Source: Nitzschia sp. DOCU1 (taxonomy: Eukaryota > Bacillariophyta > Bacillariophyceae > Bacillariales > Bacillariaceae). From it: a DNA stretch of 64,000 nucleotides. Under the pieces are notes generated by a model, which saw nothing but the letters and a program-made list of their open reading frames with translations, was not told the origin of the DNA and searched no databases. The translations under genes were made by a program, and so were the position numbers. Shown here in pieces: positions 17,396-64,000 of the stretch. Every line of letters starts with the position of its first letter. Positions within the stretch are counted from its first letter, which is position 1. The stretch is taken from contig OX595994.1 in NCBI GenBank assembly GCA_951394045.1, forward strand, positions 1,860,001-1,924,000, given 5' to 3'.

Positions 17396-20300
17396 ATGGG
17401 AGAGGGTACTTTCGACATGGATTATGTGCCCGTTACTACCTTATCATTTGAAAACGAAAATAAAAATTATACATTGCATGTTCTATTGGACTCAGGATCT
17501 ACTACTTCATGGATTAAACGATCAGTCCTACAGGGGAAAAATTTACAGTCCTTCAAGGTCCCCGCCATCACAGGGTCTACGTTGGCGGGTAACTTCAAGG
17601 CAAATGAAGCGATATTACTCAAGGATACAAAACTGCAAGAATTGGATCCACATCGAACTGTGGTCAACATGGAACTCCATGTGTTTGATGCACCTTGTCG
17701 GTACGATGCTGTGATTGGCCGCAAAGTGTTGATTGAACTAGGTATTATCCTGGATTTCAAACAGAAGATTATTGAATGGGACGATAAGATCTTGCCCATG
17801 AAGGAAAATAAGATGGTGTCCGGTCCCACTCTTTCTAATCCTAATGACGACCTTTATAGGTCTGACACGATTGGAAGAGTTGATGCTTCGGGCTATCATT
17901 CGAAGACGATTTCAGAGAGTAATTATGGAAAGGTCGATGTGACGGAAGTTGTAAATGCGTGCTCTCACCTGTCGTCTTCTCAGAAACGAGATCTTAAACG
18001 AGTTCTACAGAAGTATACGAAACTATTCGATGGAACGTTGAAAGTTTTTCCAAATGAGCAAATTGATTTGGAGCTGGATCCTACCGTTCCAGCTTATCGT
18101 GCTCGCACGTATCCGGTGCCTCGAACGCATTTGGACGTGTTCAAGAAAGAACTAGATCGATTGGAAAACGAAGGTGTTCTGTCCAGAACTGGTCCATCAG
18201 AATGGATCGCGGGATCATTTATTATCCCCAAGAAAGATGGCAGCGTTCGTTGGATATCGGATTTCCGAGCCTTGAACAAAGCGATCAAGCGCAAGGCGTA
18301 TCCGATTCCACGCATTGGCGATATCCTTTCTCGTCGAACAGGGTATAAATTTCTGACAAAATTGGACATTTCAATGCAATACTACACCTTCGAACTTTCG
18401 GAAACGGCCAAGAACCTCTGCGTTATTGCTACGCCGTTTGGCTTGTATCGGTACAATCGTCTTCCTATGGGATTGTCGATTAGTCCTGATGCTGCCCAAG
18501 AAATAATGGAGCGAGTTCTTGCAGCCGTCAAAGACATTGAAATCTACATCGATGACATTGCTTGTTTTAGCAATTCTTGGGAAGAGCACATTGCGTTGTT
18601 GGATCAAGTTCTAACGATTTTGGAACAACATAATTTCACGATCAACCCGAGGAAGTGCGAATGGGCAGTCAAAGAAACTGACTTTCTAGGTTACTGGCTT
18701 ACGCCGACAGGAATAAAACCTTGGAAGAAGAAAGTTGATTCGATCCTCAAGATGCAAAAACCCAAGAACGTTAAAGAACTTCGATCGTTTCTTGGCTTGG
18801 TCAATTTCTATCGAGATATGTGGCCAAGGCGTTCTCATGTCCTCGCCCCGCTTACAGCGCTTACGGGCAAGACTACTTTTGAATGGACGCCTGCGTGTGA
18901 CAAGGCTTTTGAAGAAATGAAGTCGCTAGCGGTTATGGATACTCTACTTCGATATCCGGATCACAACAAGGGTTTTTCGATCGAAACTGATTCCTCGGAT
19001 TACCAATTGGGTGCGGTGATCCTGCAAGAAGGTCATCCAGTTGCATACTACTCTCGCAAGTTGACGGCGGCCCAGATGAATTATACAACGATTGAGAAAG
19101 AACTTTTGAGTATTGTCGAAACTTTGAAAACGTTCCGAACAATGCTCTACGGTGCGAACCTTGATGTTTACACCGATCACAAGAATCTTACTTACTCCAT
19201 GACTCAGTACACCACACAACGTGTCTTGCGATGGCGATTGTTATTGGAAGATTTCGGGGTTACCTTTCATTATAAAAAGGGCAAAGACAATGTTGTGGCT
19301 GATGCCTTGAGTCGTGTTCCGCGTGCAGACGATGCGTCTCCCACGGTTGGGGAGAGTACGACTTCAACAGAGTCGTTCGAAGAAACAAAACGCGATGAGT
19401 ATTATTGCGGACCGTGCGAGGAACCAAATTGTGCACTTACCGATTGTCTGCTTTTCTTACCCCGTTTCGATAATGAAGAGCGATATCCATTCAATTTCGA
19501 AACTATCGCACATTACCAAACGTCGGATGAGACATTGCAAACCCTATTGCGGGAAGATCCGAACAATTATAAAAAACGTCCAATGGGCGGAGCAGATGTA
19601 ATCTGCGTCGGTGAATCCGACTCTGGCGAAGCCAGCGGGCTGATTGCCTTGCCCCGGACAATGGTGGCACCAATATTGAAATACTACCATGGCCTGTTAG
19701 GTCACGCCGAAGCGGCGACGAAGTTGGAAAAGACTGTGCGAAGACACTTTTCACACCCAAACATTGGTATTGAAGCAAAAAGGTTGATTGATGCATGTGA
19801 TATCTGTAAACGAATGAAACACTCACGTTTGAACTACGGCGAATTGCCGATTCGAGAGATTTCTCATGTCCTCCCGTGGCAACAGGTTCATGTGGATATG
19901 ATTGGACCGTGGAAATTGAAGGTTAACAAAACGAATGTTGAGATCAAGGCTCTCACATGTATTGAGCCGGTGCTGAACTTACTGGAGATATTCAGATGCA
20001 ATGACAAAAAAGGGAACACGGTTGCTCGAGCCTTTGAAAACGGGTACCTTTCCCGCTATCCTCGTCCTATTGAATGCGTCCATGACAACGGACCCGAATT
20101 CATCTGCGAAGAGTTTCAATCTTTGCTCAAGAAAGCTGGTATTCGCAAGAAGCCCACAACATCGAATAATCCTCAAGCCAATGGTGTCATTGAAGCCGTG
20201 CACAAAACAGTTGGACAAGTGCTTCGAACTTATATGGAGCTCAAACCTCCGCAACGACAAGACGAAGTTGATATCATGGTTGAAAGTGCATTGGCTACGG

Positions 20301-20665
20301 CGATGTTTGCCACACGTTGTTCTGCTCATCTTTCGTTGGGTGGTTTCTCTCCTGGTGCTCTTGCGTTCGGTCGCGATATGCTCTTGGACATTCCTCTCAT
20401 CGCAGATATTCAGACCTTGACACAAGCACGGCAAGCCCAAATTGATAATCGATTGTTGCGAGCCAACAAGAAAAGAAGACCGGTTGATTTTCGTGTTGGA
20501 CACCAAGTTTACTTAGAACGGCCTCGGAAACCTGGTGATAAATTGCGCCCTCTGTTTACTGGCCCTCATGAGATCACACGTGTTCATGCGAACGGAACGG
20601 TAACACTTCGACGTGCTCCTAACTTGATGGAACGCGTTAACATTCGACGCATCAAACCGGTTTAA
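17396..20665 (+). CDS. Pol polyprotein of Gypsy element (PR-RT-RH-IN)
   Basis: The frame is open from 17369, directly after the gag TGA; the first internal ATG is 17396 (1089 residues). Protease has LLDSGSTTSWI near residue 30. Reverse transcriptase (about 215-420) has LTKLDISMQYY and the YIDD active site (about 383-386). RNase H (about 515-640) contains FSIETDSSDYQLGAVI and VYTDHKNLTY. Integrase has an H-x4-H...C-x2-C zinc finger (HGLLGH...CDIC). Its DDE core has VDMIGPW, HDNGPEF and the Glu in NGVIEAVHK. A basic C-terminus (RRIKPV) shows no obvious chromodomain. All key catalytic residues are present, so the element looks coding-competent. Confidence 0.92.
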   Translation: MGEGTFDMDYVPVTTLSFENENKNYTLHVLLDSGSTTSWIKRSVLQGKNLQSFKVPAITGSTLAGNFKANEAILLKDTKLQELDPHRTVVNMELHVFDAPCRYDAVIGRKVLIELGIILDFKQKIIEWDDKILPMKENKMVSGPTLSNPNDDLYRSDTIGRVDASGYHSKTISESNYGKVDVTEVVNACSHLSSSQKRDLKRVLQKYTKLFDGTLKVFPNEQIDLELDPTVPAYRARTYPVPRTHLDVFKKELDRLENEGVLSRTGPSEWIAGSFIIPKKDGSVRWISDFRALNKAIKRKAYPIPRIGDILSRRTGYKFLTKLDISMQYYTFELSETAKNLCVIATPFGLYRYNRLPMGLSISPDAAQEIMERVLAAVKDIEIYIDDIACFSNSWEEHIALLDQVLTILEQHNFTINPRKCEWAVKETDFLGYWLTPTGIKPWKKKVDSILKMQKPKNVKELRSFLGLVNFYRDMWPRRSHVLAPLTALTGKTTFEWTPACDKAFEEMKSLAVMDTLLRYPDHNKGFSIETDSSDYQLGAVILQEGHPVAYYSRKLTAAQMNYTTIEKELLSIVETLKTFRTMLYGANLDVYTDHKNLTYSMTQYTTQRVLRWRLLLEDFGVTFHYKKGKDNVVADALSRVPRADDASPTVGESTTSTESFEETKRDEYYCGPCEEPNCALTDCLLFLPRFDNEERYPFNFETIAHYQTSDETLQTLLREDPNNYKKRPMGGADVICVGESDSGEASGLIALPRTMVAPILKYYHGLLGHAEAATKLEKTVRRHFSHPNIGIEAKRLIDACDICKRMKHSRLNYGELPIREISHVLPWQQVHVDMIGPWKLKVNKTNVEIKALTCIEPVLNLLEIFRCNDKKGNTVARAFENGYLSRYPRPIECVHDNGPEFICEEFQSLLKKAGIRKKPTTSNNPQANGVIEAVHKTVGQVLRTYMELKPPQRQDEVDIMVESALATAMFATRCSAHLSLGGFSPGALAFGRDMLLDIPLIADIQTLTQARQAQIDNRLLRANKKRRPVDFRVGHQVYLERPRKPGDKLRPLFTGPHEITRVHANGTVTLRRAPNLMERVNIRRIKPV
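19345..19357 (+). other. Internal duplicate of the polypurine tract (possible central PPT)
   Basis: GGTTGGGGAGAGT occurs here inside pol, between RNase H and integrase, in the codons for VGES. The identical 13-mer occurs at 20696-20708, forming the 3' polypurine tract at the LTR border. Placement is like central PPTs of some retroelements, but function is inferred only. Confidence 0.45.
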
Positions 20666-21224: not shown

Positions 21225-24200
21225 ATGTCGAAGGAAAAGCAATCTTTGGCGGTGGATACTTTGGAAGAAACAGAACGAGACGTCCAGAAACAGGTTTCCA
21301 TTGTCACTCCACAAGCCTCAGCACAAGCAACAGATGAAACCTTGACGGCAGCCTCCAGTGAAAATGAAACGGATGACTGGGCCGAGATTTCTGCGTTACC
21401 GTTATTGAAATACACCACCTTGACGGGTGTGGCCCCTCGAAAACTAGCCTCCGGCAATGACAGTCGACGACTCGAAAGACCTTGTACTTGTACGGCCGTT
21501 GCACAAGTATTAATGTATCCCGCCGATCCTACGACTGCGGCCTTGACATTTCTCGAGTCTACTACTTCTACTACTCCAGCATCCGTGGACGAGGATGATG
21601 AGGCGGTCAACATGTCGGCACTGCTGAGTAGTGATTTATGGAAACAACCCCACATGGTCATGGCCATGGGCTGGGAAACTGGAACCGTATCCTTGGCAAG
21701 TGTCAAGAATAATATTCAAGTCAAGCTGGAACAATCGCCGGGCAGTAGTAATGATTCCATGTCCAATATTACTACTGCAACAAATTCAGGAGTCGGTGGA
21801 AGTGCTACTAGTAGTAGCAGCAACATGCACTCGTCATTGACGATTCGAGAAGGAGGTGGAAGTGAATCTGCACCACCACCACCGACCGTCGATGTGAGTA
21901 TGGATTCGACAGGTACCTTGTTGGCTGCCATTGATCAGGGAGGCACCTGTTGTATTTGGGAACTCAAGTATACTCCTAGCTTGCAACATCAACAGCAGCA
22001 AGTCGTGGATGTGATGGCGGATCAAGGAGATGTGACCAGCACTCCGCCCGCAGTCACTGCTGCGGCGGCGCCGTCATCTACTACTAGTACTACTACCAGT
22101 ACTCCTGCTGTCTCCTCCAACAAGGGCAGCAGCAGTGGTGGTGGAGGCATGTTTTCTAGTTTCATGACAAAACTAACGGGACTCCCACCCACTCCCGAAG
22201 CTGAAGTACAGACTCAGTCAACAACAACAGCACCAACATCGTCTACACCAGCACCAACACCATCTACTACTACTACTCGAATGATTACTGTACCTTGCTT
22301 GGCAGCCTCTATTACGTCCACATCCCGCATTACATATCCTTCGCATTGGAAGCCACCGACTTGTCTCGTGGTGGATCCACGCAAGGCTGGAAAATCCTTG
22401 GTGGTTGGATTTCAAGATGGACGTTTGTTATGGACCAAACGCTATGGTGGAGGTTTATTATTTCAACGACGCAATGATACCGTTTTATATCAAGGAGGAG
22501 CAACAGGGGCAGGGCCTACTAGTAGTACAACTACAGAAGGAGGCTTGTCAGACTATCATCAGGCTACTGCTACTAGTAGCAACTATGCTGGTATTGAATG
22601 TGTGGCATGGAGAGGCAACATGGTAGCGTGGGCCGATGCCAGTGGGATCAAGTTGTTGGATATTGAAACGTTGACTCGGATTGCACATATTGATCGACCG
22701 ACGGGAGCGCGAGCCGCCTTGTATCCATCGTTGCGCTTGGGATTATTAAGGCCGCATTTGGTATTTGAAACTAGCTCCAATCTATTGGTGGCATGGGGTG
22801 ATTGTCTCATGAATATGGAACTCAAGGAATCTCCCACGCCGGGGGATGGTACCAGCATTGCTATGAGACGGACAGTGCAATGTACCATGGCGTGGGAATT
22901 GGATTGTGTCGCAATGGGGGTAGCGCCATTAAATGGGGAACATGTTGTGATACTGGGTGCAATTCCTCCCAATGAAGAAGAAGAAGAAGAAGGCGAAGAA
23001 GAAGAAGACGCGGCCAATGAGGATGGTAAACATTCCGCACCACCAGCAGCAGCAGTTCCAGCCTCTCCTCGCCATGATCATAGGAACGAGCTGGAAGTTC
23101 AGATTGTCTCACGAACAGATGGAACGATTCAATACGCTGACATTTTGCCCCAAGAAGTGGACGTGCCTACGTGGCTCGAGAGTAGCTTTGCCTTGCCGCG
23201 TATGGAGAATTCAAGCGAATGGAATGAGTTCAAAGCATGGTCGGGACGGCTAGATGACACTTTTGATTTGAATCTGTTGACGGGTGGTTCGGGAGGTACT
23301 GGCTCCATGGATGCAGGAGTACCACCACCAGCTCCCCCGGCGGAACCAACAACCCCAGAACGTGTCCACAGCCACGAAACTCCGGCTGTCGCCGGCAGCA
23401 ACCAAATTGTTGCGCCAATCTCATCCAATACTGGCGGCGGCAGTCCTGGGAGACCACGCAACAAATTCGTGGACTCTCATTTGCAATGGAACTTGAAATC
23501 CATCACCTTTGCCGACGAACTCGAACAAAAGATGGACGATGACTCCGATCAAGACAGTGTGGATAGCGACGACTATGGATTTGTCCTACGACCACTAGAG
23601 TTGTTGGACGATATCGCAGATTCTTTGGACGTCATGGCGACCCCTCCCATTATGGTAATAGCCTCGACATTTGACTTGGTGGCGGCGACTCTTTGTAACG
23701 TGGATGACGCAGTCGAACACGCGCTCGTAACCCAGAATCGACCTGCGCTTGCCTTGAAACGGGCTTTGCAACATCGTCGGCAATTGCGGCGCTACAAAGT
23801 GTCCGACCTTGTGCAACACTACCTCGAAGCACTTCTCTGTTTGTCACCCGACGGTGCTGGTGTGGAAACCTCTTCGCTTTCTTTGCGGAGAATGAAGTTG
23901 GCTATTCAGGCCATGCCCGTATTGCTAGGCGGTCGACTTGATCAATGGACCAAGTGGGCGCAAGAATTGGAAAAGTTGCCGGGTGCCTTGTTTCTGCTCC
24001 AGAGCCATTTGCCGGTACGGGATCCTGTCTTGCCCCCGGCACTTTATGAACAAGTCTTGCGCGGAATGCTAAAGGAGTACGAAGGGCTGGCTAGAGAAGG
24101 CGAGAGCAACCGTACTGTGGCTCTGGACAAGGAGGCAGCTCATCACGTGTTGGAAAGTCTCTTGGCGTGGGGACCCACAAGAGGACTGAAAGAGTACATC

Positions 24201-26057
24201 AAAATCTTTCAATCCAGTAGACGCAAGGGTGACAAATCCGTTGTCGAAGCGCTCAGACGGGCGGAAGTCGCTCTGCAACGCCGGTACCTCCAGACGGCGT
24301 CTGGGTACCTCAACTTTCCAATCAGTCAAGTTTCGCCAGATGAACAAATTCCAAGCAATACGCTCCCCCGATACGATGCTCATAACGACGATTCTCAAGA
24401 TACATTGTTTCAACTTGAGAATGTTATGAAATGGGTGGCACCCCGCACCCCGCTGGTCGCCCGAAAGCTGGAACTAGCGGGCGAAGCGGCTGAGTCCCAA
24501 TCGCAGCTTGTGCCTAACGATCGTGTTTTCCTGGAAGCAATGGCTCGTCTACGAATGATGCAATGTCGATTCGATTTAGCTTTACAAGCCTATCTGGCGA
24601 TCGGGGCCTGCCATTCTCCAGTTTCCATGGTCGAACTGGAGTCTCGGGCAAAAAGCGTTTTCCAGGGAGGAACTTCCAAGGCGGAGCAGCCGATCCAGAT
24701 TGAAGATACAAACTACGAGTATGTCTTGGGATTGGTGGAGAATCATCATCTTCATCGGTTATTGCTAGATAAAGACTTTATTGTCAAGAACGAGGGCGGT
24801 GAAAAGACGAAGTTCGGTCCCTTGTTTGCCTTGTTGCGCCTGGTGGGCTTGTCGCGCGCCGGAGACTTTTTGATGCAACACTGCGTCGCGCCCGAACTAC
24901 ATGCTGATGCGGGGCCGGGTTTATATGACTCCTCGGACGACTCTAAGGAATCCCAACGATCTGAGACACTTCCCATGGATTTGGTGGTGGCTCAACTTGA
25001 ATCCAGCCCCCCGTTGATGTATTGGTACCTGAATTTGGTGTTTACGAAGAAGGCAGAACTTTATATCAAGTTCCCAAACAATTCAATCCCACCAGATGCC
25101 GTGATTGAGCTCCATCGAAAGCACTTCCAATTACATTTGGATTTCGCCGGCGATGCGAAAGACTCAGCAAAGGTCCTATCGGGGATTGAAACTTACAAGG
25201 TGGAGGCCACCACGACACCCTTGTTGTCGTTTCTCAAGGTAGGAGCAAAATGGGACACTTCTTTTCGTTCCACTACTTTACTTTCTCACTGATGCATTTT
25301 GCTCGTGCGACAGGCAGCACTTCCGCTGGGTGGAATATCTCCTATCGATGCTCGGCGGCAGCTGGAAATCCTTAGAAGCGAGGAGGCTAGTGGCTCGGAT
25401 GAGGACGTCGACGAGGCAGAAGGAAGCGCGATGTCTCAGAGTTTTGCCTTGGAACTGGCGCACGTCATTGAGCACTACAGCGAGGAAACCGAAGTCGAGG
25501 CCGAAACTATCCTGGATTTGCTTCTCGAGGGCGCCAAGTCTATCATGCTAGGAGTGGCGTACGCTCAGAGGCAGCGAGAATATTCAGCGCTATTGTGGGA
25601 CAAGCTCATTCGCCATTGTTTGCCGTCGTCTGACGGACGAACGGGGGACGGAATGTTGTTTGGGACTCTCTTGGAAGCAGCAGCGTTGTCGGGTGCAGAT
25701 TTGGCTCGCTTGGTGTCCAAAATCCCTCCTGGCATGGTTGTTGAAGGATTACGACCTCGTCTTGTAGCAGCGGTGGCGGATTATCGACTCAAAGTAGACA
25801 TTCACCAAGCCGCCACAGCTGCGGCATCTGAAGAACAAGTGACGTTGATTCGAGAAGTGGCTCACAGGTCGCGACGAGGAGCAAGATTTGTCTTCCCCAG
25901 GGTAGAGGAATCCAGAGCAAGGCAGATAGCTGGATCCCCTTCGGAATCGAAATTCGACGAATCTGCATTGGACCAACCCGCCATTCTGCCCAGGAATCTC
26001 CGACCAATTGAACGACGTCAATACCACACCCTGGCGTTGTCCCTGCCTTTGCGATAG
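21225..26057 (+). CDS. VPS41: VPS41, HOPS tethering-complex subunit
   Basis: Two exons, 21225-25238 and 25314-26057, with a 75-nt intron (GTAGGA...CAG) joining TTLLSFLK to AALPLGGISP; 1585 residues. About residues 55-650 are a divergent beta-propeller with large Ser/Thr-rich insertions (DVSMDSTGTLLAAIDQGGTC, LVVGFQDGRLLWTK). From about residue 800 the sequence follows the VPS41 clathrin-heavy-chain-like solenoid. Matching landmarks include VQHYLEALL, AMPVLLGGRLDQWTKWAQEL, LPPALYEQVL, PLLSFLKAALPLGG, LARLVSKIPPGMVVEGLRPRL and VADYRLKV. VPS41 works in the HOPS complex, which tethers late endosomes and other vesicles to the vacuole via Rab7/Ypt7. The usual C-terminal RING-type zinc region is absent: no Cys/His cluster follows the solenoid. 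The propeller is about twice the normal size because of the insertions. Confidence 0.87.
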
Positions 26058-49519: not shown

Positions 49520-50998
49520 CTAGAGCGTTGAACGACTAGTAGTACTTGGCACTCGAACCACTTTGAACATGGCTACGCTACTCTCATCCACCAGCGCAGA
49601 AAAGTCATTGTGAAAGACACCTAGATCTTGTCGCAAGATCAAATCCCGGACGGTAAAGGAATACCAGCCGTCATCGCCGTCAGGGTGGGGCGGCGGTAAG
49701 TGTCGATTTGGATCAAAGGTAATTCTTTGTTTCCAAAAGATGGTATTGATATTTTCCAACAAGACGGCCCAAGAATCGGATGTGCCGGGCAAGGGAGACT
49801 CATCTTTCTGTTGCCAGTTTGACGGCATTAATTCTCGAATCCATACTCGTGTCGTTCCATTGGTTTCCGCCACCCATCCCTGTCGTCCCAAGGCATCTTG
49901 ATTGACCGCAATAATATCCTCATTGAGTAGAATAGCCTTGCTTTCTTTGGATATCGTTCGCAAATCTGTAGATATCATGAGTGGCGCCGCCAGTATAGCC
50001 CAAATGGCAAATTGCGCTTGTTGTTCCGACAAGCTCAAACCAGGATTTCCCACCATGAGCATGTCGGGATCATTCCAACCACCCCTTCCGGCGGCTCGCA
50101 CCAATACATCGTCGGGGCTAGTGCGTGCATAAAAGTTGACAATGGTAGAAATGGATGCCCAGCTGTCAAAGACGTCTTGATAATTGCGCCAGGTATTGCA
50201 AGTTTGTTTGATTCCAAAATTCAAATAGTCGGGATCTTCCCAATGATGGAATTGTTCATAATAATCGTTCGGCCAACTGCAAGAATACAGAATCGCCCGA
50301 CCTGTTTGATTGAGGGCTTTTCCAAACGCTGGATAAGTCACATTGAAATTGGATTCATTGGCATGACAAGCATCGACTTTGATCGAATCAATTTCAAAAT
50401 CATGCGCCAAGGTTTGTGCATCCAACTCGAAGTGTCCCTCAAAGCCAGGATATCCGACACATGTTTGCGTGCCAATATCGCCATACAAGCCCAATTTCAA
50501 GTCCCACGAGTGTAGAGTTCGTGATAAATTTAACAATCCATGTGGAAATCTCGTCCAGTCTTCCACTAATTTGCCCGTGACGTTGGAGCGTTCGGGGGCA
50601 CTCCAACAATCATCAATATTCACATAAACATAACCGGCCGCTTGAAAGCCGTGCTCCAACAAGAGTCGACCTTGCTGTATGTAGAATGTTTCCGAAATGC
50701 AAGTGTCCGGGAATCGAGTGCAATTGACTTGACATCCAAATCGTTCCCAGGACATCCAACCCATGGGTGGCGTCAAGGCGAGGCCATTATCGAGGGAATG
50801 AACAACGATGCGGTCAGGAAAAGCTACTAGTAACGCCAGCAGGAGGAGATACGTAATAATACATGACATTGCAACTGTTTGGTAGGGACCATCATCCCAT
50901 AGTCGATGACATAGATGTCGATGGGATGTGGAGTTGTCATCGTGTCGCTTTTTGGATCTTTTGGAGAATATGTGTTCTTCGGCCAGCAGGGACGTCAT
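49520..50998 (-). CDS. GH27 alpha-galactosidase
   Basis: 492 residues from ATG 50998; Met44 at 50869 begins an obvious signal peptide (MSCIITYLLLLALLVAF), so translation may start there (449 residues). The mature enzyme opens with LDNGLALTPPMGWMSWERFGC, the GH27 signature. Further landmarks are YVNIDDCWS, LGLYGDIGTQTC, DSIKVDACH (catalytic nucleophile Asp in the KxDxC context) and GRGGWNDPDMLMVG (acid/base Asp in the WNDPDM context). All are intact, so it should hydrolyse terminal alpha-linked galactose (or N-acetylgalactosamine) in the secretory or vacuolar pathway. The C-terminal beta-sandwich is present. A truncated inverted copy of the 3' part lies at 53284-53745. Confidence 0.93.
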   Translation of the reverse strand: MTSLLAEEHIFSKRSKKRHDDNSTSHRHLCHRLWDDGPYQTVAMSCIITYLLLLALLVAFPDRIVVHSLDNGLALTPPMGWMSWERFGCQVNCTRFPDTCISETFYIQQGRLLLEHGFQAAGYVYVNIDDCWSAPERSNVTGKLVEDWTRFPHGLLNLSRTLHSWDLKLGLYGDIGTQTCVGYPGFEGHFELDAQTLAHDFEIDSIKVDACHANESNFNVTYPAFGKALNQTGRAILYSCSWPNDYYEQFHHWEDPDYLNFGIKQTCNTWRNYQDVFDSWASISTIVNFYARTSPDDVLVRAAGRGGWNDPDMLMVGNPGLSLSEQQAQFAIWAILAAPLMISTDLRTISKESKAILLNEDIIAVNQDALGRQGWVAETNGTTRVWIRELMPSNWQQKDESPLPGTSDSWAVLLENINTIFWKQRITFDPNRHLPPPHPDGDDGWYSFTVRDLILRQDLGVFHNDFSALVDESSVAMFKVVRVPSTTSRSTL

Positions 50999-56992: not shown

Positions 56993-57653
56993 TTGTTTCC
57001 TGCAGGAGCTTGGAGAGGTTGTTGTTGTAGGACCGCCACCAACAACGATAGTAGTACTATTAACTTGTGGCGATTTCACTGCTGGTCCTCTTGTACTACT
57101 TAGATCGCTTTTTTTAGTAGGAGGAGGTCAGGTTCTTCTTGGTGCTGTGGCGACGAATGACCGCGGATCTTGTCAAGTGACTAACGCTGGTGCGGTGTGA
57201 GGATACAAATGTCGGATGGTCGAAAGTAGTACCACTTTTGGTGATCTGCTGCGCTGATGATCATGCAACAAGAAAGAAGAAGAATGATCAATAACGAGCG
57301 AGGACAGCAGGAGTCAGAAAATGGTGCTCTAGGGGGCCTTGCCAGGGTTAGTGTCAACAGGTGAATAACACCACCTGCTGCTATTCGACAATGAGACCAT
57401 CGCACCTTGTTCTTTCCTGCAGAAATCAGCCACCAGAACAATGTCCTCGTCCTCTCCCCTGCTGCTGCTGAATGGAAGCGTCGCTTGTCCTCGTCAGCAC
57501 CAACGAGAAGCAACAACAGCGGCCTTTAACACAACAATCTAGGGCAAAAGTCCACCAAGCGGGAGCAACGAAAACACAAAGTGGGGAGACAGCAGCGCTG
57601 GTGGTCCACTTCGGTTTTCTGCACTTCTATGAAATACCGGTAGTAGTAAAAGA
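56993..57653. other. Spacer before the TIR transposon
   Basis: 660 bases containing the likely 5' region of the preceding minus-strand gene and the left flank of the transposon. A minus-strand frame at 57181-57516 is not recognised. The four bases before the element are AAGA. Confidence 0.45.
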
Positions 57654-57660
57654 GGGCTTA

Positions 57661-57681
57661 TGTCCGGTCACGTAGGTAGCT
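57661..57681 (+). repeat. Left terminal inverted repeat core
   Basis: TGTCCGGTCACGTAGGTAGC plus T. Its reverse complement, with one mismatch, is at 62899-62919. The part CACGTAGGTAGCT is shared with the ends of the 1530-bp unit. Confidence 0.85.
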
Positions 57682-57915
57682 AAAATTTTATAAAGAAAAA
57701 AGGGAAAAAAAGAAGAAAAGAATTCGAAGAACAAAAGGAAGGCAATAATCCGTCATCCTAAATAACAAGGGCTACATTTTAAGGGGACACAAAAAACGCA
57801 TCTTCGGCGTGCCGACGCCGACGACCTACCCCGATACTAAAACGACAGGCCGAAGCATCAAGATGTTGTGACAATGGGTTTCATGGAGCGGCACATGCTG
57901 TGCATTATTTTGTTA

Positions 57916-58338
57916 CTACCACGAAGGAAATAAGGAGTCAGGCTCAAGCTGTCCATTGGCCATTCGAATACGTTTCCACTGTGCTTTCATATCTCGAGAG
58001 CGAATTGTCTGGCCGGATACATCACCTTCGTTGTAGCCCCGTGGCACCTGCCAATATTTGTATCGCTTTGCTTCTGGCACAATGCAATATTCCTTTGAAT
58101 TCGGAGGGGCGGATCGTTTGTGGTTTTTGCCACTACGCTCCCACCCACACCGGTAACATCGCTGGGGTTCCCGCTCCCGCTTGTTTTCAGCTTGTTTTTC
58201 TGCAACCAGCACTGGGCCAGGACCCGGCATCAACAAATGAGCTGGGCGATTGTGGCTTGTCGGGTGTGCCATCTGGAGTTCTGGTGGGCAAACAACGAAA
58301 TGCTGGCGTTCTGATGGATCTTGAAGTGCTGCCGCCAT
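57916..58338 (-). CDS. Zinc-knuckle-like extension of the transposase after an in-frame TAG
   Basis: 140 codons (ATG 58338) lying in the same frame as the transposase, separated from it only by TAG (58345-58347) and two codons. It encodes RCYRCGWERSGKNHKR, a CxxC...H cluster that looks like a zinc-binding knuckle. A conserved-looking block then reads EYCIVPEAKRYKYWQVPRGY and ends with a basic helix. It is probably the natural C-terminus of the transposase, reached by readthrough, or cut off by a nonsense mutation. The second element copy (63193-63615) has the same TAG and one substitution (His to Pro in the other frame's view). A separate small protein is the alternative. Confidence 0.55.
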   Translation of the reverse strand: MAAALQDPSERQHFVVCPPELQMAHPTSHNRPAHLLMPGPGPVLVAEKQAENKREREPQRCYRCGWERSGKNHKRSAPPNSKEYCIVPEAKRYKYWQVPRGYNEGDVSGQTIRSRDMKAQWKRIRMANGQLEPDSLFPSW

Positions 58339-58344
58339 GGGTTC

Positions 58345-61300
58345 CTACAGAGCTGGGGGTTGTTGTAGTGGTTCTTTAAATTGGATGTGAGTTGCCGCTT
58401 CATTGAAATGCTCACGTATACAAGCCACGCCTCGTCTAACAGTTGTCGTTTGCCAAACTCCAGTTCCAGGAAGTGACAAACTTGCAAGCTGTCTTTCTGT
58501 TTGCTGTCGATTAATCTTCTTCTCCAGTTCTTTGTGGTGTTCTTTGAGAAGTTGCGTAGTTTTTGAGAATAGTCGTTTCCTCTGCTCCATTGGCTTGAGA
58601 CGCTCATCCCTGGCTCTTGCATTATGAGCAACGCACAAAGCATCATAGTCAACCACGGTGTATCGTCCATGTTGCTGCCCCCCAGAGAATCTTGGCAGGA
58701 GCTGCAAAAAAAGCTCGCAATCATCTGCAGTCATTTTAGTTACGGGTACGTCCATGGGCCGGTTGAGTTCGTCATCACTGTCAATGCCCAAAGCTGTGGT
58801 AAGTTTTGCAACAACTCCATCTTCGTTTTCTGCTCGTAACAACCAAATCGCCTGACTCATGATATTTTCACTGTTCCCCCCGGTACCACATGCAGATGGA
58901 TCCACCAAATGAAGCACCTGCCGTACAATTGGGATGTAATGACTCTCTCCAGATGATGCAAAATCATTTGGATTGAGCAAATCTCCAAATAGCTGGTCCT
59001 CTTCATGAATATCGGCTGACACCTGCATCGAGTGGATTGTTTCATGCTGGTAGTACTCTGCGTAGCGATCGGTTGTGAAGCCACGTTCCACTGCACGATC
59101 ATGGTTCCAACGGTGAACGAACACGGCAAGAAGGCAAACCGCTAAAAGGGGGGAGCTGAAACTTGCCCGGAGAATGTCCCGAAGGTGTCGATGGAATCCT
59201 TCTAACTGCGAAGTCCCTCGGATACAGTGTAAGAATTTCTTTCCATTCGGATCCGTCGTGAAATAGTAATACTCAACATCCTTTTCATCGGATACGCAAC
59301 CTTTCCTAACATGCCGTAACAGGTTACGGAACTCAAGCCAGCTTTGATGGGAAAACAGTGGCTCATCCGTCTTATGGTCCTTGATGTTTGCGGCGAACTT
59401 ACATACAGAGATCAATCGCCCCTCGAGGACTTTTGGTTCTGGGATTAAACGTTCAATATCATCAAGGATCTTTCCGCTCGGACAAGCCATTCGTCGCTCA
59501 GCTTCTTTCACCGCCTGACCAGCGTTACCTGACCACTTTTTGCCCTTTTCGGATTCCAATTTTGCTGCCAACTTTTCAGTCTCTTCTTTGATGCGTTTTG
59601 GGTTTGGAATCAAGATGGCATCTCTGAGAAGACCGCTCGCCTCCTCATAAAAGCCATGGGCTTTTTTCCACGTTTTCATTAGCTTATTTAGATAATGAAA
59701 TGCATCTCCTTTGATTCCATTTCGTTGGAAGACATCAACCCCACGGTGGACATGGATTGTGCCGTTCGTTTGTTGCTCAATCAAGACGAAACCTAGGCTG
59801 TTACTTGGAGTTTCTGGTTCGGGCTGGCGATCAGGGTATTGCTCCAAGGTCGTGCCATCAGGAATTGCCCCTGTGGCTCCAAGCTCACCCAATAATCCTT
59901 CAAGAGTCATCTCGTGTGGCTCTACCTCAGCAATGGCTTCAGGGCCAACACCGGTTTCTGCAGCAATAGCATCCGCATTGGCATCAGAGCGGGGGTCAGC
60001 ACCCAGATCTTCCTCTGCGACCCTCTGAACAGTATTGAATCGGAGCGTTGCCATATCAAGGTCACCTCGATTCGACAATGTCATTCGGCTTCTTTTCCAA
60101 ACAACAGATAGATTCCTTGTAATAGCATCTGCAATAGTGATACTTTCCGTTCCCAAGTGAGGAGGGGTGGGAACCAATGCAGCCCCATTAATAGCCAGAA
60201 CAATTTTGACTTTTATACGATCGAACGTGTGCTCGCGTCGTTCGAGTCCAATTACCTCCTTCAGCTGAAACTCTGCTGACTCTACTTGCCCATAGGCAAC
60301 GACAGTGTTAGATGTTGTTCCAAGCAGACGCACGACAGGGAGTCCCTTAAGCTCCTCTCTGGTAGGCTTGTAATGTACATTTTCAAGCTCCTTCACTTTT
60401 TTGTAGAGCTCAAGGCTAATCCATGCGTCTAGTGCGGCATAGTTCACGCATTCCTGTGGGAGTGTGGCCGCACTCCAACTGGACCGTGCAAGGGACTTGT
60501 CAACACGACGGCCAAGGAAGTTTGCAGCCATATCGCTGAGGCCTTTTTTCTGTTTCCAAAATAGTAGGGATGCTTTCTCCGCAATCTGCACACAATCACC
60601 CACATTATGCGTGGTTCCGACAAACTCTGCTGGGAATGATTTTTTCAGTCTTGTCACGTCCCCTTTCACCCCAACGCCAACGAGCAAGGAATTCTTATGA
60701 GTCAATATACGAAGCAATGTACTGTTGTATTGACACCAAGTAGAGACATCAACAGTATAATTTACGTTGCCTTCACGTAGTATCATCTCCGGGAATGTTC
60801 GCCGGAGAGAAATAACAAGAACTCTGGTTGTGTTGCCAAATTCCACTGCAAGCTGCAGCGTTTCTGGGAACTGCTCCTGGCGCGATTGAGTGGATAGCGA
60901 GTCCCACTCGATATCGAAGCCAATTGGTACCACGTGCATAGCGGCATCCAAATGTTCCAAAATTGGAACGGCGGACTCTAGAAATCCTCCTTTAGTTGTG
61001 ACAAAGACCGGGTGGACTGGTAGCTGGGCCAACGGTAAGTTTTGTTCAAACTGATCTGCCCTTGGCGGCACCGGATCCCTGTCCCCCAGAGTGGGCATGG
61101 CTCGCACAAGCATGTTGTACTCGTGGCAGCAACTATCCGTATAGAACAGTCGCACGTCCTCGTAGCCGTGGATATTGTAGCGATGTTGTATCCCTTTAAG
61201 AATCGACTCCATTTCATCATAGTCTCCAGCTCGTACAAAGTTGATTGCAACGACCTGATTGTACTCGTTCATCACTGTATACACGGAGTCAAAAGCTCGA

Positions 61301-62613
61301 ACAGCGGTAGTATCAGCCCCCTGCACAAAAACAAAACGAATGACTTTGTAGGACTTGTCGCCACAGAGTACACGCCCAGATACCAACTGGAGACACCGTT
61401 CATAATATGGCAGGAGATTTAATGCTCGAAGGAGAAAATGTTTTTCCAAATATTGCCTCAATGGTATTTCAGCAACCACGTCTTGAACATTTAGCTTCAA
61501 TGCCTTCTCATGCTCCACTCTGCTCATAATGAACAGGGAGCTCTGCACCGTTTTATTCTTACGGTACGCATCAATCCTTTTCAAAATCTTGTAGAAAAGA
61601 TTCTGGCGATGGCTAACAGCTTTCTTCCTTATAGAAAGGAATGAGGATTTCAGCGCAGCTTGCTCAAAAATTTCGTCACTGAAAGCACGAGTAATTGCAC
61701 GTCGCTTTGTAACAACTAGATCAAGCATATCTCGAATGTCGTCAGTCAAAAATCGCATGACGTCAGGATCATGCCCAGCAAAGTAGTAGGCATGGTCACT
61801 TGCATCGCCTATTTGGTCCTCACTTTCCCCACTGTCCCCACTGGAACTATTCTGAGCTCTTCTTATTTTACAGTAGTAGCGACTGCTAAAGAAGAAGCCA
61901 GCTGTCCCATCTTTATCATCAAATGTCCGGACAAAATTGTTGTAAAAAGAATCCCGGCATGTGCATGGATTGCCATCAGGTGCTGGGTCGAATCCATGCC
62001 ATTTGCAGGGCATGCATCCTTGGAAAAGCATATGAGGCCTTGTCCTATCAGGCGCAAAGAAGATGATGCGAGCAAACTGCGGGGCAAGGAAATCTGCTGC
62101 AGTTGGATTTGGGAGCATGGTTGGGTCGCCCCATTGGTACTCAAATGTAGTCCAATCAAAGCGTTTGACTCCATCGTTTGAACGAAAGAATTGGTTTGCC
62201 TGGCGCGATCCGGCTTGCATGGATTCCCGAAGCTTGGACATAAGTTTGCCGACTTTTAATCGGAAGATTACTGGAACATTGCTCATCACCACGCCTGGTA
62301 GTGGGTCATCGTCTGTTGGCGGAGGGAACCCACGGCGGATACCCTCAGACTTTCCGCCAATTTTCCCTGGTGGTTCCTCGTGATCGTCTTGTGCATTTGC
62401 GTCCATCGGAGTATTCAAAACGGCAACAGTTGGCGGCACTGACGATGGTCGTTCTTGTGGCTTTGCCATGAAAAAGTCTCGCCTCCGTGCTGCAAGTTGT
62501 TCATGCTCTCGCCTTTTATCACGTGCAATTTCAGCGTCCGTTCGTCGATTGTACCCCGTTCCTCTCTTCCTTCCGCGGCCATTTCCGCACCTGTTGTCGT
62601 CGTTGGTGGCCAT
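58345..62613 (-). CDS. DDE-type transposase with inserted DEDDy 3'-5' exonuclease domain
   Basis: 1422 residues, ATG at 62613. A basic N-tail is followed by a Cys-containing region (GCMPCKWHGF...CTCRDSF...YYCK, about 199-249), probably zinc-binding. The transposase-like core has GDKSYKVIRFVF (Asp419), YTVMNEYNQVVAINF and LFYTDSCCHEYN (Asp493). Then comes a complete WRN/RNase D-type exonuclease (about 530-745): FDIEW (Asp567, Glu569), VGVGVKGDVTRL (Asp652), YAALDAWISLELY (Tyr725, Asp729). After it the transposase fold resumes: KGDAFHYLNKL (about 970) and RGTSQLEGFHRHLRD (Glu1138), followed by RWNHDRAVERG. All five DEDDy residues and plausible DDE residues are intact. The frame is uninterrupted, so the element may be active. 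The superfamily is not one I can name confidently. Confidence 0.82.
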   Translation of the reverse strand: MATNDDNRCGNGRGRKRGTGYNRRTDAEIARDKRREHEQLAARRRDFFMAKPQERPSSVPPTVAVLNTPMDANAQDDHEEPPGKIGGKSEGIRRGFPPPTDDDPLPGVVMSNVPVIFRLKVGKLMSKLRESMQAGSRQANQFFRSNDGVKRFDWTTFEYQWGDPTMLPNPTAADFLAPQFARIIFFAPDRTRPHMLFQGCMPCKWHGFDPAPDGNPCTCRDSFYNNFVRTFDDKDGTAGFFFSSRYYCKIRRAQNSSSGDSGESEDQIGDASDHAYYFAGHDPDVMRFLTDDIRDMLDLVVTKRRAITRAFSDEIFEQAALKSSFLSIRKKAVSHRQNLFYKILKRIDAYRKNKTVQSSLFIMSRVEHEKALKLNVQDVVAEIPLRQYLEKHFLLRALNLLPYYERCLQLVSGRVLCGDKSYKVIRFVFVQGADTTAVRAFDSVYTVMNEYNQVVAINFVRAGDYDEMESILKGIQHRYNIHGYEDVRLFYTDSCCHEYNMLVRAMPTLGDRDPVPPRADQFEQNLPLAQLPVHPVFVTTKGGFLESAVPILEHLDAAMHVVPIGFDIEWDSLSTQSRQEQFPETLQLAVEFGNTTRVLVISLRRTFPEMILREGNVNYTVDVSTWCQYNSTLLRILTHKNSLLVGVGVKGDVTRLKKSFPAEFVGTTHNVGDCVQIAEKASLLFWKQKKGLSDMAANFLGRRVDKSLARSSWSAATLPQECVNYAALDAWISLELYKKVKELENVHYKPTREELKGLPVVRLLGTTSNTVVAYGQVESAEFQLKEVIGLERREHTFDRIKVKIVLAINGAALVPTPPHLGTESITIADAITRNLSVVWKRSRMTLSNRGDLDMATLRFNTVQRVAEEDLGADPRSDANADAIAAETGVGPEAIAEVEPHEMTLEGLLGELGATGAIPDGTTLEQYPDRQPEPETPSNSLGFVLIEQQTNGTIHVHRGVDVFQRNGIKGDAFHYLNKLMKTWKKAHGFYEEASGLLRDAILIPNPKRIKEETEKLAAKLESEKGKKWSGNAGQAVKEAERRMACPSGKILDDIERLIPEPKVLEGRLISVCKFAANIKDHKTDEPLFSHQSWLEFRNLLRHVRKGCVSDEKDVEYYYFTTDPNGKKFLHCIRGTSQLEGFHRHLRDILRASFSSPLLAVCLLAVFVHRWNHDRAVERGFTTDRYAEYYQHETIHSMQVSADIHEEDQLFGDLLNPNDFASSGESHYIPIVRQVLHLVDPSACGTGGNSENIMSQAIWLLRAENEDGVVAKLTTALGIDSDDELNRPMDVPVTKMTADDCELFLQLLPRFSGGQQHGRYTVVDYDALCVAHNARARDERLKPMEQRKRLFSKTTQLLKEHHKELEKKINRQQTERQLASLSLPGTGVWQTTTVRRGVACIREHFNEAATHIQFKEPLQQPPAL

Positions 62614-62926
62614 TGTATGCCAATACCACGGTCAGTCCATTGATGAAATGATAAGTTTGTGTGTGACTATTCCATGCGATTTGTTGTTGGAAGCAGGCGT
62701 TGGTGGAGCAGGACCGCGGCGTTGGGTTCAGTGACGTCGAGAACTGAGAATAATGACTTTCTAAATGATGTTTTACACTTTTTGGAGCAATCCTATTGGT
62801 GGCCTGTTGGTGGCTTACACTTTTCTGACGGGTTAGAATCGGCCAAAATGGCTTGTTTATGATAATTCTGAGGCCTTTTTGTCAAAGGCTTACACTTGAG
62901 CTACCTACGTGGCCGGACACTTGCCT
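62614..62926. other. Promoter side and right TIR of the transposon
   Basis: About 310 non-coding bases upstream of the transposase ATG, ending in the right TIR (core AGCTACCTACGTGGCCGGAC, 62899-62919). They should hold the transposase promoter. Confidence 0.6.
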
Positions 62927-62930
62927 AAAA

Positions 62931-64000
62931 GGGCTTATGTCCGGTCACGTAGGTAGCTAAAATTTTATAAAGAAAAAAGGGAAAAAAAGAAGAAAAGAAT
63001 TCGAAGAACAAAAGGAAGGCAATAATCCGTCATCCTAAATAACAAGGGCTACATTTTAAGGGGACACAAAAAACGCATCTTCGGCGTGCCGACGCCGACG
63101 ACCTACCCCGATACTAAAACGACAGGCCGAAGCATCAAGATGTTGTGACAATGGGTTTCATGGAGCGGCACATGCTGTGCATTATTTTGTTACTACCACG
63201 AAGGAAATAAGGAGTCAGGCTCAAGCTGTCCATTGGCCATTCGAATACGTTTCCACTGTGCTTTCATATCTCGAGAGCGAATTGTCTGGCCGGATACATC
63301 ACCTTCGTTGTAGCCCCGTGGCACCTGCCAATATTTGTATCGCTTTGCTTCTGGCACAATGCAATATTCCTTTGAATTCGGAGGGGCGGATCGTTTGTGG
63401 TTTTTGCCACTACGCTCCCACCCACACCGGTAACATCGCTGGGGTTCCCGCTCCCGCTTGTTTTCAGCTTGTTTTTCTGCAACCAGCACTGGGCCAGGAC
63501 CCGGCATCAACAAATGAGCTGGGCGATTGTGGCTTGTCGGGTGTGCCATCTGGAGTTCTGGGGGGCAAACAACGAAATGCTGGCGTTCTGATGGATCTTG
63601 AAGTGCTGCCGCCATGGGTTCCTACAGAGCTGGGGGTTGTTGTAGTGGTTCTTTAAATTGGATGTGAGTTGCCGCTTCATTGAAATGCTCACGTATACAA
63701 GCCACGCCTCGTCTAACAGTTGTCGTTTGCCAAACTCCAGTTCCAGGAAGTGACAAACTTGCAAGCTGTCTTTCTGTTTGCTGTCGATTAATCTTCTTCT
63801 CCAGTTCTTTGTGGTGTTCTTTGAGAAGTTGCGTAGTTTTTGAGAATAGTCGTTTCCTCTGCTCCATTGGCTTGAGACGCTCATCCCTGGCTCTTGCATT
63901 ATGAGCAACGCACAAAGCATCATAGTCAACCACGGTGTATCGTCCATGTTGCTGCCCCCCAGAGAATCTTGGCAGGAGCTGCAAAAAAAGCTCGCAATCA
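62931..64000 (-). mobile_element. Second, window-truncated copy of the 5.27-kb transposon
   Basis: The sequence repeats 57654 onward at +5277 with near identity (for example GTGGGC at 58281 versus GGGGGC at 63558). It contains the post-TAG extension (63193-63615) and the C-terminal end of the transposase frame, which stops at 63622 and runs off the right edge of the window. Same orientation as the first copy, so head-to-tail. Confidence 0.9.

Follow-up and report, generated by a model that had tools for sequence, protein, structure and literature searches.

A Dada-related transposon of Nitzschia with an exonuclease inside its transposase and tandem junctions suggestive of IS256-like strand transfer

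We analysed a 64,000-nucleotide stretch of Nitzschia sp. DOCU1 (GenBank assembly GCA_951394045.1, contig OX595994.1, positions 1,860,001 to 1,924,000 of the forward strand; hereafter the window, numbered from its first letter) and found that its right-hand part carries a 5271-bp transposon, with the transposase coded on the minus strand, followed by the beginning of a second copy in tandem (Table 1). Between their TGTC ends, the two copies differ at 2 of 5259 bases. A sequence-only reading of this DNA had described a single uninterrupted frame of 1422 codons at 58345-62613, with no strand given, and clean tandem junctions, and had proposed a search for flanking inverted repeats. The frame is borne out, on the minus strand; inverted repeats flank the element and likewise its homologues of the window family; and the tandem junction is real, with copy 2 starting 6 bp after copy 1. 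The frame was thus correctly placed, but the element is larger and the frame falls short of a C-terminal CCHC finger: it closes at an in-frame stop (58345-58347) that is common to both window copies, and reading past this stop reaches the finger, which an open relative (L004, 1539 aa) retains. A relative on contig C3 is open at the position of the window's stop and has its own stop at codon 982, and the copies of a second family (family 2; found at C2 and as three tandem copies at C15) read through 1558 codons without a stop.

The protein joins a DDE-type transposase core to a complete WRN-like exonuclease placed between the second Asp and the Glu of that core, as the earlier reading had held, and all the motifs it quoted are present. 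These are GDKSYK from residue 418 (D419) and FYTDSCC from 490 (D493), then FDIEW from 566 (D567, E569), GVGVKGDVTRL from 646 (D652) and YAALDAW from 725 (Y725, D729), and finally DAFHYL from 970 (D970xxH973) and TSQLEGFH from 1134 (E1138). The exonuclease has the fold and all five DEDDy residues (D-E-D-Y-D) of WRN and RNase D; in WRN this domain is joined to a helicase, whereas here it is inserted in a transposase. The profile search which that reading suggested returned DNA_pol_A_exo1 (residues 563-741, E 9.1e-14) as the only domain recognised and no Pfam transposase match; the DDE core is assigned on motifs, conservation and fold. Upon aligning 85 proteins (the window protein and database relatives) and scoring ten catalytic columns (three transposase, five exonuclease, two DxxH), we observed that 67 rows cover all ten columns. 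Full conservation of the ten residues, arranged as D-D-(DEDDy exonuclease)-DxxH-E, was seen in 62 of the 67, among them named proteins from four diatoms (Cylindrotheca closterium, Discostella, Thalassiosira exigua and Skeletonema). One pavlovophyte and three fungal proteins have one of the ten residues changed, and an Armillaria protein lacks two and has one more changed; P0072 has the DDE residues and no exonuclease, and P0084 and P0085 are weak matches without the transposase residues.

The exonuclease is under purifying selection. We found it in 7 of 7 in-genome proteins scanned, the window's included, and it is the most constrained part compared between close copies. When the window copy is compared with a 97%-identical relative at C3, the ratio of non-synonymous to synonymous substitution rates (dN/dS) is 0.125 for the exonuclease and 0.327 for the whole frame; for L018 versus L020 it is 0.037 for the exonuclease and 0.153 for the 544 codons before it. 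Counts are small in both comparisons. Since the domain is constrained between close copies and present in all seven proteins, we take it to be in use. On the other side stand the small exonuclease counts of the C10 versus C3 comparison (3 non-synonymous and 7 synonymous changes) and the comparison of the window copy with family 2, in which dN of the exonuclease (0.40) exceeds that of the DDE halves (0.30 and 0.28), with dS saturated.

Next, we investigated the ends and insertion sites across the host genome (locus names are contig:position). This genome contains 18 stretches that match silicon transporter genes, in keeping with a diatom host. The ends of elements of the window family and its relatives, GGCYTA-TGTCC... 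and ...GACA-NNNNCC, are inverted repeats. We matched 152 ends at no more than one mismatch and listed 100 of them (exact patterns: 70 B, or upstream, ends and 76 A, or downstream, ends); a few diverged ends were missed because the listing relied partly on exact patterns. The 28 scored loci comprise 13 single insertions and 15 arrays. Dropped before counting were the array C1:3841k (flanks the same as those of C1:3869k; it obeys the spacer rule given below, 2/2), the partial end C1:3847k, C14:1903140 without an adjoining B end, the compound C16:1427k and the degenerate end C1:4086653, and ten listed ends lie outside the analysis (C1:5539316, C2:5050912, C2:5064603, C4:74480, C6:3271194, C6:3448731, C7:2815320, C9:290565, C15:289145, C17:4671). 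We found an exact 8-bp duplication outside the ends at 24 of the 28 loci, with 7 of 8 bases matching at three and 5 of 8 at one. For the window pair, the right partner TAAAAGCG lies beyond the window, past copy 2, and matches the left TAAAAGAG at 7 of 8 bases. Additionally, three further elements of a deeper family, read by eye, have the exact 8-bp duplications GCGATTGG, GAAAGATC and GGTTTTCT. Over 27 sites, the targets are rich in A and T and tend weakly towards G-A-A-W-W-T-T-Y, with at most 0.44 bits per position. The 27 rebuilt empty sites (C14:1904646, one of the 28 loci, is outside this set) share no sequence, no two being alike, and none contains a tRNA, 23 of them being 98-115 bases and too short to show longer RNA genes. 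Rfam gave no matches in 12 loci of 10 kb, and ARAGORN, run on 20 loci and the window, placed no RNA gene at any insertion, its sole tRNA (L026 9362) lying about 3 kb away from the repeated stretch.

The tandem junctions follow a rule. A pattern search for end pairs spaced by 18 bp, made up of 6 bp from either element end and the 6 bp separating them, gave 75 rows, namely 32 junctions seen on both strands and 11 non-junction rows, and the orientation was head-to-tail in 32 of 32. After removal of the two junctions of the duplicate array and addition of four of other length, the scored set holds 34 junctions in 15 arrays. In 11 of the 15 arrays, the spacer is identical to those six bases of the duplication that adjoin the B end, and in none is it identical to the six at the A end. 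By junction, the rule applies at 24 of 34; the spacer is 6 bp long at 30 and 8 bp long at none. The two remaining duplication bases are absent at fitting junctions, and because the lost pairs differ (AG, TT, TA, TC, AT, CT, GG) we see no microhomology rule. Furthermore, the rule tracks the orientation of the element and not the genome strand (four fitting arrays lie one way, seven the other), and the same rule with the same polarity recurs at C15:380k in a far family, which shares 28% identity with the query over its matched stretch.

We also compared folds of the catalytic core. The 50 matches listed for the window protein model were exonucleases, polymerases and other proteins with such a domain, and we therefore folded a relative that lacks most of the exonuclease (P0030). 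Among the solved structures listed for the core of P0030, the top-ranked was the transposase of ISCth4, an IS256-family element, ahead of Hermes.

Among known systems, the closest in design are Dada transposons, defined by Kojima and Jurka in 2013 by a DDE triad plus a DxxH motif (PMC3706591, available in part, as are the two papers cited below; Dadas are compared here by their published description). The Dadas of Laccaria bicolor and Ectocarpus siliculosus carry a DEDDy exonuclease placed after the second D and ahead of DxxH, with likely 3'-end processing suggested, and in the available part of that paper the exonuclease is reported for these members only (PMC3706591). The design that the sequence-only reading had called little described, its main claim, is therefore a rediscovery. 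The diatom element has in common with these members the DDE triad, DxxH, the exonuclease placement and a C-terminal CCHC finger (that of its family), and differs from them in its single long open frame. Published Dadas with clear ends occupy small RNA genes and make 6-7 bp duplications, and Dada-U6 and Dada-U1 have subterminal inverted repeats only, with no terminal ones (PMC3706591); in contrast, the diatom element has inverted repeats reaching the ends, an 8-bp duplication and a weak AT-rich target preference only, with no small-RNA-gene target found in the loci searched. Because of the target and the duplication length, we file the element as Dada-related and not as a canonical Dada. It shares with zebrafish Dada-U1 the 6-bp spacer between tandem copies inside an 8-bp outer repeat. 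In Dada-U1 this pattern is described for two tandem pairs, one of U1A with U1A (chromosome 3) and one mixed, of U1A with U1B (chromosome 12), and the 2013 authors chose a 6-bp duplication while noting that 8 bp remained possible (PMC3706591).

The second comparison is with ISCth4. In this element, the 3'-OH of one end is transferred to flanking DNA immediately beyond the other end; the resulting junctions contain 6-8 bp of flank sequence, integration is best with a spacer of 6 bp, and the target duplications are A/T-rich and 8 bp long (PMC7780238). In vitro, its transposase alone yields spacers of 6-8 bp, and for IS256 spacers of 5, 6, 7 and 19 bp are cited (PMC7780238). Common to ISCth4 and the diatom element are the 8-bp A/T-rich duplication and the 6-bp junction spacer from one flank; ISCth4 is also the best listed fold match of the relative's core, at a weak E-value. 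ISCth4 is, unlike the diatom element, bacterial, with a short transposase and no exonuclease described in the available part of the source, and in it either end serves as donor (5 versus 3 of 8 products), whereas the diatom arrays show one polarity in 11 of 15 and the other in none. KolobokP belongs, as the diatom element does, to the eukaryotic DDE transposons of the C/DxxH group; it too forms multimers and encodes an additional nuclease, and its authors liken its excision to copy-out-paste-in (PMC9587614). Unlike in the diatom element, this nuclease is a homing endonuclease of the His-Me finger type, the units share long terminal direct repeats, and the target is the TTAA of Kolobok.

Because the arrays combine an 8-bp duplication with a one-sided 6-bp spacer as in ISCth4, and because the fold search independently ranked ISCth4 first, we consider it probable, with moderate confidence, that this Dada-related transposon uses IS256-like asymmetric strand transfer, giving junctions of copy-out/paste-in type. 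The transposase would cleave the A end first. The 3'-OH so released would then attack flanking DNA at a distance of 6 nt from the B end, either in the same element or in its sister copy, and the resulting B-6bp-A junction would be a figure-eight, a circle or a tandem dimer, like those of copy-out/paste-in elements. Such a junction, if formed with a resident copy or recombined into one, would leave a local tandem array, and pasted elsewhere it would make a new 8-bp duplication. With low confidence, we suggest that the exonuclease acts on a 3' end that becomes accessible when DNA is copied or repaired; our guess is that this would be either the flank 3'-OH that primes copying or a displaced 3' strand.

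Several observations weigh against asymmetric transfer. The spacer rule is broken in 4 of the 15 arrays: C4:3730k and C15:1329k have perfect outer 8-bp duplications with 6-bp spacers foreign to the site, and the spacer is 7 bp at C8:172k and 10 bp at C14:1679k. Additionally, one of three spacers at C12 is 5 bp, and C11:1945k fits on its left flank only. The Foldseek E-value for ISCth4 is weak (0.14, with 0 of 78 matches under 0.001), its third row is tied with integrases by the criterion of the tool, and what was modelled is not the window protein but P0030, which is about 20% identical to P0002-P0005 (relatives of the window family). With its 6-bp spacer, the mixed U1A-U1B pair of zebrafish (PMC3706591) cannot be an in-place self-duplication, and all of the evidence is read from resting sequence. 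We would read the four rule-breaking arrays as arrays moved as units or as imprecise junctions. The loci C15:1329705-1338032 and C4:3730866-3733571 look like ready-made arrays transposed as units.

The same arrays would be left by sister-chromatid cut-and-join, in which the transposase cleaves an A end on one chromatid and, together with 6 nt of flank, a B end on its sister, and repair joins the two, with no circle and no copy-out. We regard this as unlikely, though a serious contender: one end alone would have to be cut with an offset, of exactly 6 nt, joining would have to be lossless at 24 of 34 junctions, and the fold ranking places ISCth4 above Hermes. The idea of the sequence-only reading, that the exonuclease produces the clean junctions by trimming two bases off the 8-bp flank, agrees with the presence of the domain in all seven proteins scanned and with the two absent duplication bases. 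It is nevertheless doubtful, and we give it a small chance: the 8/6 pattern of Dada-U1 comes from a paper whose available part reports the exonuclease in Laccaria and Ectocarpus only (PMC3706591), and ISCth4 makes its spacers with transposase alone (PMC7780238). Since these two systems suggest that the domain is dispensable for a 6-bp junction, it is probably not the maker of the tandem junctions.

Replication slippage or unequal exchange, without transposase, can amplify an existing pair, and the near-identity of the window copies agrees with this, but it leaves the first pair unexplained, with the same two positions lost on the same side, and we hold it to be very improbable as the origin of the arrays. 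Hardly credible for this genome is a true duplication of 6 bp with tandem copies as independent insertions at the end of a resident copy, which is the Kojima and Jurka reading of Dada-U1, argued from tandem zebrafish copies, one pair of which comes from two different families (PMC3706591). The diatom sites are all different, yet the 8-bp duplications are exact at 24 of 28 loci, which contradicts it here, and an 8-bp insertion beside a copy should produce additional bases or a spacer of 8 bp, a length seen in none of the 34 spacers. The diatom data rather favour an 8-bp duplication plus a junction spacer for the Dada-U1 case too, the mixed zebrafish pair notwithstanding.

The design of an exonuclease within a transposase has been in print since 2013, and we found no account of how such elements move; in the open-access literature we found no eukaryotic case in which the 8/6 rule is reported as a junction signature. 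Fifteen distinct arrays and 30 six-base junctions, together with one far-family array, provide a readout of the attacking end and its distance without experiment. If asymmetric transfer is correct, copy-out/paste-in, a pathway known mainly from bacteria, extends to a eukaryotic DDE superfamily, the 2013 question of 6 or 8 bp is resolved in this lineage, and the exonuclease, under selection within a transposase, gains a testable place in the reaction. A wider view is tentative, and we lean slightly away from it: eukaryotic Dada-type transposons may be of the IS256 copy-out/paste-in kind, with a fixed end attacking 6 nt outside the other, 6-bp array junctions as the fossil record, and, in the present branch, a WRN-like exonuclease placed within the catalytic domain so as to process the copy-priming 3' end; the 6-bp "duplication" of some Dadas would then be a spacer and the true one 8 bp.

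Table 1. Features of the tandem transposon in the window (positions in the 64,000-nucleotide stretch)
Feature	Position	Strand	Remarks
Left target duplication TAAAAGAG	57647..57654	.	right partner beyond window
Whole element, copy 1	57655..62925	-	downstream "A" end left, upstream "B" end right; inverted repeats; 8-bp duplication outside GGCTTA...CTTGCC
A-end terminal inverted repeat	57655..57684	+	
CCHC-type zinc finger	58084..58158	-	in frame yet beyond stop
Transposase-exonuclease frame, 1422 codons	58345..62613	-	stop-shortened relative to family
DxxH motif and second half of catalytic core	59119..59736	-	residues 960-1165; E1138
WRN-type DEDDy 3'-5' exonuclease domain	60367..61035	-	residues 527-749; activity predicted
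First half of DDE catalytic core	61114..61383	-	residues 411-500; D419 and D493
N-terminal Cys cluster	61870..62016	-	C200, C203, C217, C219, C248; position of the DUF6729 domain of some relatives
B-end terminal inverted repeat	62896..62925	-	last bases CTTGCC
6-bp spacer TAAAAG between tandem copies	62926..62931	.	equals the 6 duplication bases adjoining the B end
Tandem copy 2, start	62932..64000	-	continues past window end

The spacing of the N-terminal cysteines (200, 203, 217, 219, 248) is unlike that of C389, C394, C429 and C432 of the Dada CCCC finger (PMC3706591). DUF6729 (Pfam) is the N-terminal domain of P0009, P0072, L022 and L025, and the word was not found in the open-access literature searched. 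P0016, a metagenome relative of 2367 residues, has an OTU-type protease domain ahead of DUF6729 and the exonuclease.

Among further copies, the 1.4-kb arrays look non-autonomous, and the one array copy of this size that we read (L116) has no frame longer than 127 codons. L115 (G000:C1:3426850-3433400) is a 6.5-kb member of the same inverted-repeat family with a 1560-codon frame, gag-pol-like by eye, which apparently belongs to a retroelement that inserted into the transposon. Another group of homologous elements lies at C10:431k-460k and C1:2779k (L025-L028).

Elsewhere in the window, we observed a reverse transcriptase/integrase frame (17396-20665, plus strand), a Vps41-like frame (21225-25292, plus strand) and an alpha-galactosidase frame (49520-50998, minus strand). 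An identical 21-bp tandem repeat occurs at 928-972 and 2638-2682, 1710 bp apart, which hints at local duplication.

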